Origin: Cupriavidus sp. IDO
GTDB taxonomy: Bacteria > Pseudomonadota > Gammaproteobacteria > Burkholderiales > Burkholderiaceae
Length of the DNA stretch: 64,000 nucleotides
Direction: 5' to 3'
NCBI RefSeq assembly: GCF_000812465.1
Contig: NZ_JWMA01000033.1
Coordinates: 62,001-126,000 of the forward strand
Part shown: piece by piece, positions 1,691 through 6,879 of the stretch
How positions within the stretch are numbered: position 1 is the first letter of the stretch
How the letters are laid out: each line of letters starts with the position of its first letter
The notes under the pieces: model-generated
Seen by the model: only the letters and a program-made list of their open reading frames with translations
What the model was told of the DNA's origin: nothing
Database searches by the model: none
Made by a program: the position numbers and the translations under genes

Positions 1691-3055
1691 TCAAAAATTA
1701 ATAATCAAAAATTGAGCCAGGGCGGCAATGACCATGAGTGGTACTATGAGTTGCAGTGCTAATACCGCGGAATATCTTGCCGTCGAACCGACCTTTTCGA
1801 GGGTAAGTGCCCTAATCCAACTGCTGGCGGTTGACGATATGTGATAGCCTGCGTACACATAGCATACGGCTTCAACACTCTGTTTATAGGCTGCCAGCGC
1901 GGCCAATGCCAACGTGACGATACTCAGAATCATCGAGGCTACTGCCTGGAAGCGAAAGTCCTTCGCGTAGAGCAGCAATGTGTACGGAATATAGCCAAAG
2001 GCGCCCACGACAAAGCCCGGCAAGAGAATCTTTACGTAGTGGGATATTATCTCGTTGTCATGATTGTGGCCAACCCACAGGCCAATCAGGAGATCCCGCG
2101 CCAGCCAGAAGACAAGGCAAGGTACGGTAGTGATCAGGATTGTGCAGAGTACGAATCTATAGATCGTGGCTTTGGGGAAATCGTTGCCTGCGATATTCTG
2201 ATTCAGCACACGGGGCTGAAAATACTGGCTGATGGGTCCGCCCAGCAATGATAACGGAACCATACAAACGGTCGTCGCCAGAAAGTAGGGCGACACGCTG
2301 TTGGCGGAAATCATGCCGGATACCAGGGGCTTGTCCAACTGCGTAACGGCTGCGCCTGCAGCCGAGAAGAGTACCAGTGCACGCCCCTTTTTTATCAGCT
2401 CCCACGCATCCCGGATACTGGCGTGTGGCAGGCTGGACTGTCGCGAGGTGGCGCCGCGCCAGTATGCGAGACAGTAGTGGCGCGTGACCAGTGCCTGCCC
2501 CACGGCAAATATGAGCTGTGTGGCGATGAAGGCGGACATCGTGTTCGAGATGGTCGCCAGAACATAGGCCGTGACGCATGCGCGGGCTGCCACGCCAATC
2601 ACCTGAATCGTACTTGCCGCCGCATACTCGCGGCGGGCTAGCATCGTCCCGTAGTACGTGTTCTGGAGAACCAGCACCCAAAAGAGCACAATCGTACCCA
2701 CGATTGTGCTCCACTCAATGCTGGCGAAAGCCCCCAGAGCCTTTAGGCCTACGGCGATCGGTAGCAGCAGGAGATAAAAGCCGGTGAGGCTAACCTCTGC
2801 CGTATGCACAAGCGACACTAGTTCGGGCGAGCTAGAGCGGTTGACTGCCACCTCACGACCGAGCAAGGTCGACATGCCCAGATCCAGCATGATCAGGAGA
2901 CTCTGGAGCGACAGGATTACGGCAACAATGCCAAACTGTTCAGGGCCGAGTTGGTGTCGATAGAACGGCAGGAAGATGAACCCTACTAGCACTGCCGACA
3001 CTTTGCCGGCATACAGCATCACCATGTCGAGTGCGGCGGCACGGAGCAATTTCAT
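1691..3055 (-). CDS. Wzx-like oligosaccharide flippase
   Basis: A 454-residue protein made almost wholly of hydrophobic helices, about 12-14 segments, with the layout of the MATE/MOP polysaccharide transporter family. The N-terminus (LLRAAALDMVMLYAGKVSAV) and the GPEQFG loop after the second helix are typical of Wzx. It should flip undecaprenyl-diphosphate-linked O-units across the inner membrane. It sits between the dehydratase and the DegT gene, with only 13 bp and 9 bp to its neighbours, so it belongs to the same operon. It is not closely similar to the other flippase at 15,994. Confidence 0.85.
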   Translation of the reverse strand: MKLLRAAALDMVMLYAGKVSAVLVGFIFLPFYRHQLGPEQFGIVAVILSLQSLLIMLDLGMSTLLGREVAVNRSSSPELVSLVHTAEVSLTGFYLLLLPIAVGLKALGAFASIEWSTIVGTIVLFWVLVLQNTYYGTMLARREYAAASTIQVIGVAARACVTAYVLATISNTMSAFIATQLIFAVGQALVTRHYCLAYWRGATSRQSSLPHASIRDAWELIKKGRALVLFSAAGAAVTQLDKPLVSGMISANSVSPYFLATTVCMVPLSLLGGPISQYFQPRVLNQNIAGNDFPKATIYRFVLCTILITTVPCLVFWLARDLLIGLWVGHNHDNEIISHYVKILLPGFVVGAFGYIPYTLLLYAKDFRFQAVASMILSIVTLALAALAAYKQSVEAVCYVYAGYHISSTASSWIRALTLEKVGSTARYSAVLALQLIVPLMVIAALAQFLIINF

Positions 3056-3064
3056 CAGTACCTT

Positions 3065-4204
3065 TCAGCTCTGTCCGGAATTCAGCGACTCGACTGCCGA
3101 GCGCGCGAACACGTCGCCGATAGTGTCAACGTCAGTCTGGGTCAGCCACCATCCGCAAGGAATGGCGACAATATGGTTTTGCAAATAGGCGGTATGAGTG
3201 AGCGGGCCCAGGCGGTTCGCATGGAACCCGCTATAGGTGTCATTCCGATGGTGCAGGATGGACGCGGAAATGCCCCGGTCTTTCAGTTGCTGAAGCAGCG
3301 TGTCCCTGTTTTCGGCCAGGCAGAGCATTACCCAATACGCCGGGTCTGCGCCATTGGCGGCGCGCACGGTGCTAATACCCTCGACTTCCGCGAGCCGTGC
3401 CGTAAGCCTGGTCACGTTGGAGCGGGCCTGCTCGACTTTTTCCCGTGCGGTCTCCAACTGGGCGTATCCGAGTGCCGCGCACAGATTGTTCATCGTGTAA
3501 GCCCACCCGATCTCGGGGATATCGGCGTCCGGATTGATTTCCCCTTGCGTGGTGCGGAACCCTGAGCTCTCGATGCCAAAGCGCCTGAGCTGAAGAGCCT
3601 TGCGTGCCATTTCCGCCGATTTGCACGCCAGCGCACCTCCTTCGGTGCAATTGATCTGACGATTCGGATAGAAGGAATAGATCGAGAAATCCGCGAGACC
3701 GCCGACGTGAGCGCCGTCCTGCGTGGCAAACAGGGCGTTGTTGCAGTCTTCGATAAATGCAATGCCACGCGCCTTGCACAGCTCGGCCATTTCCCTGGCC
3801 GGGCCAGGGTAGCCGGCTACGTGATACATGATCACGGCCTTTGTCTTGTCGCTGACCTTTCGCGCGGCATCGGCGACGTCCATTTCAACCGAGCGCGGAA
3901 GTACATCTACCCATACCGGTGTGGCCCCGCAATGCGCAATCGCGGAATTGGTGGCCATGCAGGAAAAGGCGGTGGTCAGGACTTCGTCCCCGGGGCGGAC
4001 CCCGGCGAGATGCAAGGCAAGAAACATCGCGCTTGTCATATCCTGGGTGGAAACCACGTGGGGTTGGCCGACAAGGTCGCCAATACCCTTTTCAAACTTT
4101 GCCACGTACTCGCCGCTGGCGATGCGACCGGAGCGCAGGACTTCCAGAGCCGCAGCCTCCATTTCGGGGGTGTGGACGACTCCGAACAATGGTATTTGCT
4201 TCAT
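3065..4204 (-). CDS. DegT/DnrJ/EryC1/StrS family protein lacking the PLP lysine
   Basis: A 379-residue fold-type I PLP protein of the sugar aminotransferase family. The residue that should be the Schiff-base lysine is Arg182 (SFYPNRQINCTEGG; codon CGT at 3659-3661). The phosphate-binding SGT loop reads STQDMTSA, and the usual EDCAH is EDCNN. The next gene upstream (4216-5301) has Lys182 and SSGTGA at the same places, which gives a built-in comparison. The SFYP-x-x-x-x-T-EGG setting recalls the ColD/E1 dehydrase branch, where the lysine is His. The protein is therefore unlikely to be an ordinary aminotransferase. It may be a non-catalytic partner of its paralogue, or a dehydrase-like enzyme. 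Confidence 0.85.
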   Translation of the reverse strand: MKQIPLFGVVHTPEMEAAALEVLRSGRIASGEYVAKFEKGIGDLVGQPHVVSTQDMTSAMFLALHLAGVRPGDEVLTTAFSCMATNSAIAHCGATPVWVDVLPRSVEMDVADAARKVSDKTKAVIMYHVAGYPGPAREMAELCKARGIAFIEDCNNALFATQDGAHVGGLADFSIYSFYPNRQINCTEGGALACKSAEMARKALQLRRFGIESSGFRTTQGEINPDADIPEIGWAYTMNNLCAALGYAQLETAREKVEQARSNVTRLTARLAEVEGISTVRAANGADPAYWVMLCLAENRDTLLQQLKDRGISASILHHRNDTYSGFHANRLGPLTHTAYLQNHIVAIPCGWWLTQTDVDTIGDVFARSAVESLNSGQS

Positions 4205-4215
4205 TTTGGGTTTCC

Positions 4216-5301
4216 TTAGCCTTTCCTGATCGCATCGACGATACGCTCGCGATCTTCATCGCTGACCCACCAGCCGCACGGGATGTGAAGCAGCCTTTTG
4301 TAGAACGCCTCCAGGCCGGGCAATTCCCTGCGGGATGCGGCGAAGATGCTGTGGAGACTGTTGGGGCGATGAAGTTTCGATGCGGCGATTCCTGCAGCGT
4401 TAAGCGCCTTTTCGACGCTCGCGCTGTCGTCGCACAACAGGGTGTAAATCCAGTAGCTTGGCTCGGCGACGGCATCGCAGCGCGCAAAGTCGACCCCGCT
4501 GACCGATTCCAGCTGGGCGTCGTAGAACTTGCCATTCTCGATGTGCCGATCGAGGACGGCCGAGATGTTCTGCAACTGAACCAGTCCGATCGTGGCGTTG
4601 ACGTTATTCATGTTGTACTTGTAGCCAACGCTGGTGATATCGATCTCGGTGCGCGGAACACCCTTGAGCATTCCGAACCAGCGGAATTTCTTTGCCGCGT
4701 CCAGTTGCGATTCGTCGCTGAGCGTCAGCAGGCCACCATCGACAGTGGTCATGTGTTTGATGGCCTGGAAGGAATAGATTCCGTAGTGGCCGATCGTGCC
4801 GATGGGCCGGTCCTGATAGCGTGCTCCCAGAGCGTGGGCGCAATCTTCGATGAGAGCGATTCCGTGCTCGTCGGCGAGCCGCTTCAGCTCGGCAAGGCGC
4901 ACCGGGTAGCCAGCATAGTGAACGCAAAGGATTGCCTTGGTCCGGCTCGTGATGCAATTGCGGACCGATTCGGGGCACATATTGCCCGATGCCGGATCGA
5001 CATCGGCCCAGACCACTTTTGCGCCGTTGTAGAGGATCGACGTATTGGTCGGCTCCGCAGTCATTGGCGTGGAAATCACCTCATCGCCAGGGCCGACACC
5101 GGCCAACGTCAGCGCCGCGTGAAGCGCGCCGGTTCCGCTGCTCATTGCGAGCGAATGCTTCAATCCGAATTTCTTGTTGAACTCTGACTCGAATCGGTAA
5201 ACGGATTCTCCCTCGGCAATCATGCCGCTGTAGAGAACCTCTTCCAACGCGGGCATGAGGGCCGATTTGGCGGGCATTGCTACCTTGACGATCGGGATCA
5301 T
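4216..5301 (-). CDS. DegT/DnrJ/EryC1/StrS sugar aminotransferase
   Basis: A 361-residue PLP-dependent nucleotide-sugar aminotransferase. It has SSGTGALHAAL (54-64, PLP phosphate loop), IEDCAHALGA (151-160, Asp that contacts the pyridine nitrogen) and YSFQAIKHMTTVDGG with the Schiff-base Lys182. Family members use glutamate to convert a 4-keto (or 3-keto) nucleotide sugar to the amino sugar. It could act on the 4-keto product of the CapE-like dehydratase, but the substrate is not shown by sequence. Its start is 15 bp after the acetyltransferase stop, and 11 bp separate it from the Lys-less paralogue. Both proteins share an IPCGWW motif near the C-terminus. Confidence 0.9.
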   Translation of the reverse strand: MIPIVKVAMPAKSALMPALEEVLYSGMIAEGESVYRFESEFNKKFGLKHSLAMSSGTGALHAALTLAGVGPGDEVISTPMTAEPTNTSILYNGAKVVWADVDPASGNMCPESVRNCITSRTKAILCVHYAGYPVRLAELKRLADEHGIALIEDCAHALGARYQDRPIGTIGHYGIYSFQAIKHMTTVDGGLLTLSDESQLDAAKKFRWFGMLKGVPRTEIDITSVGYKYNMNNVNATIGLVQLQNISAVLDRHIENGKFYDAQLESVSGVDFARCDAVAEPSYWIYTLLCDDSASVEKALNAAGIAASKLHRPNSLHSIFAASRRELPGLEAFYKRLLHIPCGWWVSDEDRERIVDAIRKG

Positions 5302-5315
5302 ATTGAATATTTCAC

Positions 5316-6143
5316 TTAGATGCGGTTAAGCAATGATATATATGGCAGGTCCGGGAGGCTCTTGCCCGAGAGATTGCTGATCATTCGCTGGGAACTTGCT
5401 TGCAGTTCCGAGCGGTAACCCCGATTGACCAGCTCTGCGTAAATTTCCGAGTCCGCCGGAGCATTTAGATTCCATCTTTCTGGAAGAATCTTGTCGATGA
5501 TCTCAAAAATGGCATCCCAATTGCCGGTCCACTCCGCCAGGGTGTATCCCTGCATGGTCGGGAGTACCGTTATGGAGGCCACGTGATTGCTGAAAGTCAC
5601 CACGCTTTTGGCGAACGCCGGGACGCCCTGAGTTGACCTGTTCTCTACTGTTATATCGGTCAGGTCGTGACAGAAAACGCTGTCATCGTCAGCCGCCGGA
5701 TGCCTCCACACAGTTCCATACCTGTCGTGGCTGTCCACGACGAAACCGTGCCTGGCATAGACATCGGGCTTGTTCGTCCAGAGGATCAGCGAGTTGTAGG
5801 ATTTTTCCTTGCCGACTTCCGTTGCAGCAGCAAGGAGTTTGTGGCTGAGCCCTTGGCCCCGGAACGCTTTGCCGACACAGACCATGCCAACTAGTCCGAC
5901 GGTCTCGGCGTTGAGAAACGTTGCCTCTTTGATGATGAGAGCCGCAGCCGTCGACTTCACGTCGTTCCCGTCATCCTGACTGATCAGGACAGATGTCACC
6001 CCGATCCCGGCGTCAATCCACGGGTAATGCGTGGGCAGGTCGATTCCGCGCCCTCTGGAGCTGAAAAATACCTCCCAGATCAGCGCCTGGGCAGCCGGTG
6101 GCACACCTCGATGTACCGAGTACTGCAATGACAGTTCGCTCAA
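5316..6143 (-). CDS. GNAT-family N-acetyltransferase
   Basis: A 275-residue protein with a GNAT domain at about residues 10-150. The acetyl-CoA loop is the Arg-Gly-Gln-Gly-Leu in VGKAFRGQGLSHKLL, followed by a helix and YARHGFV, the usual beta-5 element. In this operon it probably acetylates the amino group made by the aminotransferase before the sugar enters the repeat unit. It is longer than single-domain sugar acetyltransferases such as PseH (about 180 residues), and the C-terminal 120 residues are not recognised. It is the first gene of the minus-strand biosynthetic run after the MarR-type regulator. Confidence 0.8.
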   Translation of the reverse strand: MSELSLQYSVHRGVPPAAQALIWEVFFSSRGRGIDLPTHYPWIDAGIGVTSVLISQDDGNDVKSTAAALIIKEATFLNAETVGLVGMVCVGKAFRGQGLSHKLLAAATEVGKEKSYNSLILWTNKPDVYARHGFVVDSHDRYGTVWRHPAADDDSVFCHDLTDITVENRSTQGVPAFAKSVVTFSNHVASITVLPTMQGYTLAEWTGNWDAIFEIIDKILPERWNLNAPADSEIYAELVNRGYRSELQASSQRMISNLSGKSLPDLPYISLLNRI

Positions 6144-6227
6144 TTCACACCTCGTCCCGTTAGTCTCGGCTGGAGAACATCCTGATCGCTGACCCCGGAA
6201 TCGGCAAACCGCTCCGGTACCCCTGAT

Positions 6228-6599
6228 TTAAGCCTCTTCTTTCCTTTTCGCATTGAAGTCGCCGTCTCCAACTTCGGCCCGCAAGGCCTCGATTTCCGAC
6301 TTCAGCAGTTCGTACTCTTCCATCTTGCGTTTCAGGAAACGGCTGGTCAGGGCTGCCTTTTCCGCAATACCGCGTGGCGTGAGAATGTATACATAGCCAA
6401 ACTTGTTCTTGGATTGGCTAAAGTTCTGGACCTTGATCCAGCCCTTTTCCATCAGGGCCCTGAGGCAGTAATTCAGACCTCCCACGCTTACGCCCAGCTT
6501 CTCCGCAAGCTCGCGCTGGGTGAGGTCCGGATTCTCCTGCAAGATGCGCATGATCCGAAAATACGTGTCTTCTTGTATCTTGGCTTGGCGACTGGTCAT
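6228..6599 (-). CDS. MarR-family EPS-associated transcriptional regulator
   Basis: A 123-residue winged-helix regulator. The HTH spans about residues 20-55 (TQRELAEKLGVSVGGLNYCL, then RALMEKGWI), followed by the wing (KFGYVYILTPRGIAEK) and a C-terminal coiled coil. This layout is the EPS-associated MarR family (TIGR04176), whose genes stand at the head of exopolysaccharide and O-antigen loci. It precedes the acetyltransferase by 84 bp on the same strand and probably controls the run down to base 1. A perfect 8-bp inverted repeat lies 57 bp upstream of its start and is a candidate operator. Confidence 0.85.
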   Translation of the reverse strand: MTSRQAKIQEDTYFRIMRILQENPDLTQRELAEKLGVSVGGLNYCLRALMEKGWIKVQNFSQSKNKFGYVYILTPRGIAEKAALTSRFLKRKMEEYELLKSEIEALRAEVGDGDFNAKRKEEA

Positions 6600-6655
6600 G
6601 GGTTGGAGACAATGCTCATTTGCAGAATGACAGTCGCAAGCAAGGTAGCATTCAG

Positions 6656-6683
6656 CCTCGTCACTGTGAGGCTGTTGACGAGG
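6656..6683. promoter_or_regulatory. Inverted repeat, candidate operator of the EPS regulator
   Basis: CCTCGTCA (6656-6663) and TGACGAGG (6676-6683) are perfect inverted arms separated by 12 bases. A nested TCACTGTGA lies at 6661-6669. It is the only clear dyad between the regulator start (6599) and the upstream pseudogene. MarR proteins bind such dyads as dimers and often control their own gene. No binding data exist here, so the role is inferred. Confidence 0.4.
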
Positions 6684-6879
6684 TGACTAAAGTGCCTTAG
6701 ACAGTATGTTTGTTTGAAGTTGAACAATTCTACTTGGATCCCGCCGCGCGGTCCAGCGCCTGAGGCCAGCCCCGGCCCTTCCGCCTGCGGGGGATCTACC
6801 GATTGTTCTACGTCTGTTGTCTGGCGGCCCCATTTGCCTGTGATAGTTTCCACGGGAAATTGCCTTGCCTTCGTTCTTC

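Follow-up and report, generated by a model that had tools for sequence, protein, structure and literature searches.

What can a protein with the DegT fold do once it has lost the lysine that binds pyridoxal 5'-phosphate (PLP), and why would it be retained next to a paralogue that has kept it? The question is raised by two adjacent genes in a stretch of 64,000 nucleotides from Cupriavidus sp. IDO (contig NZ_JWMA01000033.1, positions 62,001 to 126,000), hereafter the window. An original prediction, made from the letters alone, had noticed that one of the two DegT paralogues carries an arginine at the position of the PLP lysine. The answer that we favour, at about even chances, is that the product of the gene at 3065-4204 is a cofactor-site-degenerate, probably PLP-free paralogue and the obligate partner of a catalytic 4-aminotransferase encoded at 4216-5301. 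These two proteins, and their counterparts in other genomes, are called below the partner and the catalytic chain.

Both genes lie on the minus strand, a point absent from the original prediction. The catalytic chain (361 residues) resembles AtmS13 and CalS13 and has its PLP lysine at position 182, in the motif SFQAIKHMTTVDGG; the partner (379 residues) has Arg182 there, together with Asp55-Met56, Tyr127, Asn156 and Ala235. The two proteins are 34% identical over 348 columns, and Arg182 falls on the Lys182 column in an alignment that is free of gaps around the site, which confirms the reading frames and the Lys/Arg difference as they were first read; the spacer of 11 nt between the genes had also been given correctly. 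Each protein matches the Pfam family PF01041 over its full length (258.1 bits for the partner and 302.6 bits for the catalytic chain, with a gathering cut-off of 19.8), and this is the sole Pfam match of the partner at an E-value of 0.001. The PLP-binding lysine, a criterion of the DegT family, is present in the catalytic chain (Lys182) and lacking in the partner (Arg182). Hence, the partner is labelled here as having a DegT fold and not as a DegT aminotransferase.

The replacement is found well beyond the window. A scan of one genome per species, which used two short peptide patterns only and is therefore non-exhaustive (86 relatives confirmed, 80 loci kept), returned loci L014-L024, whose proteins are 40-79% identical to the Arg protein of the window and whose hosts are Cupriavidus, a Comamonadaceae bacterium, Mariprofundus, Erythrobacter, Sphaerotilus and Sphingomonas. 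The nearest named relatives of the Arg protein, at 79 and 76% identity, are those of Cupriavidus. Column 182 is Arg in 11/11 of these loci, with a Lys paralogue immediately upstream in all, and the loci ranked after L024 in the same scan hold ordinary Lys-bearing DegT proteins of at most 33% identity. Together with two more relatives, a plasmid copy and the window, L014-L024 make up the first 15 loci (L010 and L013, repeats of L017 and L015, are excluded from the counts). The Lys chain precedes the Arg chain in 15/15, the two genes being separated by -1 to 18 nt.

Overall, 29 adjacent pairs were found in several proteobacterial groups, 12 of them in one family, and the partner gene lies directly downstream of the catalytic chain gene, on the same strand, in 29/29. 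Column 182 is Lys in 29/29 catalytic chains. In the partners it is Arg (16), Ser (7), Asn (4), Thr (1) or Lys (1), so that lysine is absent in 28/29. The Ser, Asn and Thr residues are those of the family with 12 pairs, two partners of this group being 38 and 40% identical to that of the window; the remaining Lys, in the normal motif SFYATKHINTGEG, belongs to a pair from genome G1213 (locus L169). The check proposed with the original prediction, namely to see whether close homologues usually carry the lysine or occur without the paralogue, turned out in its favour, with one Lys-bearing homologue and none lacking the paralogue in the genomes searched. As a control, Lys was found in 94/94 other full-length DegT proteins, a non-random set that comes from the same searches, is rich in Verrucomicrobiota, includes near-copies and amounts to 22 sequences after greedy thinning at 55% identity.

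Several other columns of the cofactor site have changed with the lysine. Residues were counted in the 29 catalytic chains, the 16 Arg partners, the 13 other partners and 25 other DegT proteins, restricted to profile matches assigned a locus. Each of the columns considered is invariant in the catalytic chains (Ser55, Gly56, Thr57, Val127, His156 and Lys235, all 29). Column 55 is Asp in 15 Arg partners, Asn in one and Asp in the 13 others (Ser 19, Asn 5, Thr 1 in the other DegT proteins), and column 127 is Tyr in all 16 and all 13 (Val 24, Leu 1), so that Asp/Asn55 and Tyr127 characterize the partner clade in 29/29. Column 56 is Met in the 16 Arg partners and Arg (12) or Ala (1) in the others (Gly 17, Cys 6, Ala 2 in other DegT proteins); column 57 is Thr (14) or Ser (2), then Ala (9) or Ser (4) (Thr 23, Ser 2); column 156 is Asn (13) or Ala (3), then Gly (7), Ala (5) or Glu (1) (His 12, Gln 9, Glu 3, Leu 1). 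Finally, column 235 is Ala (9), Ser (5), Thr (1) or Pro (1) in the Arg partners and Ser (9) or Asn (4) in the others (Asn 12, Lys 11, Arg 1, Gly 1). Other residues are unchanged in the partners: Ser177 in 29/29, Asp153 in 25/29 (Glu in 4, all among the 13 non-Arg partners), and His318 and Asn321, at the C-terminal end, in 29/29. In the window, the His of the EDCAH motif is indeed gone (EDCNN in the partner). The SGT phosphate loop, described earlier as lost, is altered in its first two residues (Ser55 to Asp, Gly56 to Met) but keeps Thr57, and Ser177 and Asp153 are kept as well. The IPCGWW motif does occur in both chains; however, the broader AtmS13/CalS13-like subfamily has this trait as well, with LPVGWW in AtmS13 and IPVGWW in CalS13.

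Roles were given to these columns by comparison with Spr1654. Asp153, His156 and Ser177 were matched to it by their equal distance from the lysine (29, 26 and 5 residues), whereas the matches proposed for Thr57 and column 235 follow their motifs. Column 235 would on this basis correspond to Lys257 of Spr1654 and Lys241 of ArnB. These two lysines were modelled as holding the amino donor. The partners also share a specific loop, G[ED][IL][ND]P..D[IV], found in 28/29 partners, 0/29 catalytic chains and 0/25 other DegT proteins. From its position before column 235, this loop should match a flexible region of Spr1654, from which Tyr249 extends, in a model, to the substrate bound by the other subunit (PMC5936713). 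To judge from these columns, the partner retains its fold but has changed at the lysine, in part of the phosphate loop, at the O3' contact and at the putative donor residue. An AlphaFold2 monomer model of the Arg protein has a pLDDT of 88.3 and a pTM of 0.88, and its best Foldseek matches are the DegT-type sugar aminotransferases TlmJ, CalS13 and AtmS13, with a TM-score of about 0.9. The arginine itself is not the point, since a sister clade carries Ser, Asn or Thr, and this second group rules out Arg182 as a universal catalytic residue.

In phylogenetic trees, the catalytic chains form one clade (support 100/99) and so do the partners (100/98, and 100/96 with L169 added), and the two clades split in parallel into the same two bacterial groups. 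The trees omit L011, L022, L133, L136, L138 and L139, the tree with L169 also being built without three long-branch outgroup rows, and the ends of the L022 and L023 partners were cut back at the stop. This topology fits an old duplication followed by co-inheritance, within the limits of a fork joining both clades with the singletons that lacks resolution. The Lys-bearing partner of L169 (1443-2567, minus strand; also L171) is nested in the partner clade, where the Ser/Asn/Thr group is its sister. On the best tree, the lysine has then changed in two steps, being either lost twice or lost once and regained. A constraint tree uniting the Lys-less partners is 18.7 log units worse, with a p-AU of 0.118; since a single origin is not rejected, two losses are not claimed. 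The L169 partner has Asp55, Tyr127, Asp153 and Asn235. It is a candidate evolutionary intermediate, and its Asp55 and Tyr127 mean that the pocket may have changed ahead of the loss of lysine.

Both chains appear constrained. In 14 comparisons, the ratio of non-synonymous to synonymous substitution rates (dN/dS) ranges from 0.077 to 0.127 in the partner and from 0.035 to 0.081 in the catalytic chain, values that are approximate because dS (0.63-2.67) is near saturation. By this estimate, the partner clade is under purifying selection, with a dN/dS of about 0.1. The original prediction had seen in the combined changes the mark of selection towards a new role, and not of one mutation; this is borne out by the age of the clade, the several changed cofactor-site columns, the purifying selection and the Lys paralogue adjoining in 29/29.

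The two members of the pair were found together. The Arg protein as query finds relatives in 4/200 genomes of the family and 2/398 of the phylum, and the Lys protein in the same 4/200 and the same 2/396, the window's own genome being counted each time. With a profile of the catalytic chain at a threshold of at least 500 bits, members were found in 3/229 genomes of the class, 12/36 of one family, 2/249 and 2/130, and a partner adjoins every one of them. These samples contain their centre genomes, mostly picked for having the pair; the window's genome and two of the 12/36 are counted among the 3/229. No member of the catalytic clade without a partner was detected among the genomes sampled, at 500 bits or more or within the E-value limits used for the Lys protein, a partner too diverged for the profile being liable to escape; nor was a partner homologue without a Lys paralogue found in the genomes searched. 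A scan of viral contigs gave 17 pattern matches and no relative.

In the window, the pair belongs to a cassette that reads, on the minus strand, MarR-type regulator, GNAT protein, Lys182 DegT, Arg182 DegT, flippase and dehydratase. The dehydratase (667-1677, Pfam Polysacc_synt_2) is a FnlA/PseB-like UDP-GlcNAc 4,6-dehydratase, the presumed supplier of a 4-keto-6-deoxy sugar, and scores under both NCBIfam cut-offs (FnlA, 557 vs. 730 bits; PseB, 317 vs. 408). The GNAT N-acyltransferase (5316-6143, Pfam GNAT) probably acylates the new 4-amino group. Between the partner gene and the dehydratase lies a Wzx-like flippase (1691-3055, PF01943), and directly upstream of the cassette a MarR-family regulator associated with extracellular polysaccharide (EPS) genes (6228-6599; TIGR04176, 163.8 bits vs. 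a cut-off of 88), with a glycosyltransferase gene and a sugar-phosphate transferase gene also upstream. Among the 14 other first loci, a dehydratase homologue 63-96% identical to that of the window is present in 14/14 (about 5.5 kb downstream in L017) and a GNAT homologue in 13/14. In L020, a hexapeptide acyltransferase (5986-6855, plus strand) takes the GNAT place, the sole such swap among the 15 first loci. The 16th Arg pair, in genome G1055, has the dehydratase only as a fragment at the edge of its stretch, and no GNAT homologue was found there. The plasmid copy (L094, CP099620.1, 6075-10175) carries GNAT, Lys DegT, Arg DegT and dehydratase on a 65 kb plasmid of a Sphingomonadaceae isolate from a leaf; both of its DegT genes are annotated as aminotransferases.

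A mechanism can be proposed from this gene content. The FnlA/PseB-like dehydratase would yield a UDP-4-keto-6-deoxy-HexNAc, the Lys chain would transaminate C4 with PLP as cofactor and, for instance, L-glutamate as amino donor, and the GNAT protein would acylate the amine. The product is likely a 4-acylamido-6-deoxy sugar, presumably a UDP-2-acetamido-4-acylamido-6-deoxy sugar. The Lys-less chain would carry out no transamination; it would rather stabilize or activate the catalytic chain, or give it specificity, within a hetero-oligomer. Its retention beside an active paralogue, its constrained fold and loop and the variation of residue 182 from clade to clade are consistent with a role that is independent of this residue.

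Several observations weigh against an obligate partner of this kind. Column 235 is Lys in 29/29 catalytic chains and has decayed in the partners. If this residue acts across the dimer, as in DegT enzymes, the lysine of the catalytic chain would still serve a live site, the catalytic chains would form dimers with each other, and separate homodimers fit better. The heterodimer of one active and one structural chain, put forward in the original prediction, is plausible, with the pattern at column 235 counting against a simple shared site. Alternatively, the column 235 Lys may have been put to another use, such as an interaction with Asp55 of the partner. The L169 partner keeps its lysine and may be active. 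The distances within the two chains are correlated (r 0.956 over 27 pairs, 0/5000 permutations; 0.95 and 0.915 within the two groups), which is expected of any linked genes that are inherited together and is no evidence of contact. The only model of a complex, that of a stop-read-through K-R chain of L016, has a pTM of 0.53; with three partner sequences and a short linker tying the chains, it is a weak test that decides neither way. Another alignment was left out of the folding, the identities of its partner rows (31-34%, about the level between K and R chains) suggesting that the unpaired ones had been placed on the catalytic half. More distant single genes (L131, L142/L163 and L157/L162, 330-369 bits) show no partner within the 12-19 kb inspected. 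Two of these regions (L162, 8635-12339; L163, 6264-9989) hold an AtmS13-like single DegT (SFQAIKHITTGDGG, SCT loop) near a dehydratase that is 55% identical to that of the window, so that the chemistry need not require a partner. Such genes are possibly the one-gene state.

A more detailed form of the proposal is somewhat less likely than not. The pair would be a two-chain bacterial nucleotide-sugar aminotransferase in which a catalytic DegT depends on a co-inherited, PLP-free "prozyme". The lysine would have been lost after pairing, possibly twice, in the Arg clade and in the Ser/Asn/Thr clade, with one living Lys form, and Asp55 of the partner would perhaps replace the PLP phosphate by pairing with Lys235 of the catalytic chain across the dimer.

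The alternative that survives best, although it seems unlikely, is that the Lys-less protein forms its own homodimer with a new, PLP-independent activity on nucleotide sugars (e.g., epimerization, or binding and channelling), the catalytic chain being a separate homodimer. The decay of column 235 together with Lys182 in the partner, and its invariance in the catalytic chain, speak for this explanation, and the altered pocket is itself conserved, with Asp/Asn55 and Tyr127 in 29/29, Met56 and Arg182 in 16/16 Arg partners, and His318 and Asn321 retained in 29/29. However, residue 182 varies by clade (Arg; Ser/Asn/Thr; one Lys) and is hence no common catalytic residue, Asp153 is replaced by Glu in 4/13 of the second group, and no spare step of the pathway seems obviously in need of an enzyme. 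It is rather improbable that both chains are aminotransferases for different substrates, another residue or an external amine standing in for Lys in the partner. The normal SFYATKHINTGEG motif of the L169 partner, with Asp153 and Asn235, would suit this idea; nevertheless, Lys is absent in 28/29 partners, and changes are seen also in the columns adjacent to the cofactor and at the putative donor residue.

Much less probable still is a 3-dehydrase dependent on pyridoxamine 5'-phosphate (PMP), such as ColD or E1 (RfbH), with Arg replacing the catalytic His; this was the second reading of the original prediction. ColD-type enzymes share the DegT fold, have a His in place of the PLP Lys and use PMP chemistry. 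The entry 3bb8 is entitled "E1 Dehydrase H220K Mutant", and profile A2 does match E1 (3bb8, 4.6e-33) and ColD (3gr9, 3.8e-20), but its match to AtmS13 is far better (5.3e-59). The NCBIfam RfbH score is 128.6 bits vs. a cut-off of 423, His is found in 0/29 partners, and columns 55, 56, 156 and 235 have changed. These residues and profile scores, which place the partner clade much closer to AtmS13, do not support a ColD-like dehydrase. Finally, a decaying, functionless duplicate or a local mutation can practically be dismissed since, even if divergence in the partner is about 1.5-fold that in the catalytic chain (1.46 and 1.59 for the two groups), a dN/dS of about 0.1, invariant clade-specific residues and pairing in 29/29 argue against decay, and Arg in 11/11 loci of at least 40% identity, with Lys absent in 28/29 partners, rules out a local mutation.

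In the group of the window, the cassette lies in a setting of EPS or O-antigen synthesis. Wide flanks were read for only two loci of the second group: L129 (7304-19000) has FliS and FliF genes nearby, and L130 (8163-18859) has flagellin and GT41-type tetratricopeptide repeat proteins. Their dehydratases are 48-50% identical to that of the window. A GNAT gene is present in L129 and was not found in the L130 stretch; next to the L169 pair, homologues of the dehydratase and of the GNAT protein are both present. The pair has the fold of the 4-aminotransferases PseC, ArnB and Spr1654 and follows the same dehydratase-aminotransferase logic. The pseudaminic acid pathway (PMC7591256) was considered for the neighbours of flagellar genes and is unlikely, PseI being found in 0/17 pair-bearing genomes (Sphingomonas not included) in a search whose control was detected in 8/14 known genomes and above the cut-off in 1. 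PseC also differs in that its equivalog cut-off (TIGR03588, 423.5) is missed by the catalytic chain (229.1 bits) and by the partner (177.6 bits). The L129 and L130 cassettes may therefore act in the glycosylation of flagellin, independently of the pseudaminic acid pathway.

Partners that are dead paralogues are known for a few eukaryotic enzymes. To our knowledge, none has been described in the DegT family; a Lys-less DegT partner was described in none of the matches listed, by title and start of abstract, in the CC-licensed part of PubMed Central, most subscription literature lying outside this scope. Among proteins of solved structure, AtmS13 and CalS13 (PDB 4zwv, 4xau, 4zas) are nearest in sequence to both chains; they share the GWW end motif and differ from the partner by their PLP lysine. 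A precedent is serine palmitoyltransferase (SPT), in which SPT1 has no PLP lysine and SPT2 is unstable without SPT1 (PMC6148460). As in SPT1/SPT2 (LCB1/LCB2), only one of two paralogous chains has the lysine in 28/29 pairs, including that of the window. However, SPT is a eukaryotic enzyme of the alpha-oxoamine synthase family with an experimentally shown complex, whereas the present pair is bacterial, of the DegT family, and its complex is proposed. Similarly, the trypanosome AdoMetDC prozyme and DHSp are catalytically dead paralogues retained with an active partner (PMC5201418 and PMC3663545); these enzymes are unrelated to DegT, and complex formation and activation, proposed here, were shown there.

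These comparisons suggest that the pair is a case of a pseudoenzyme partner, seemingly new to the DegT family. If so, the annotation of these genes would have to be corrected, two amination steps now being counted where one may exist. The natural bacterial series of Lys, Ser/Asn/Thr and Arg partners would then illustrate the path by which a homomeric PLP enzyme retains, or becomes dependent on, a dead twin.

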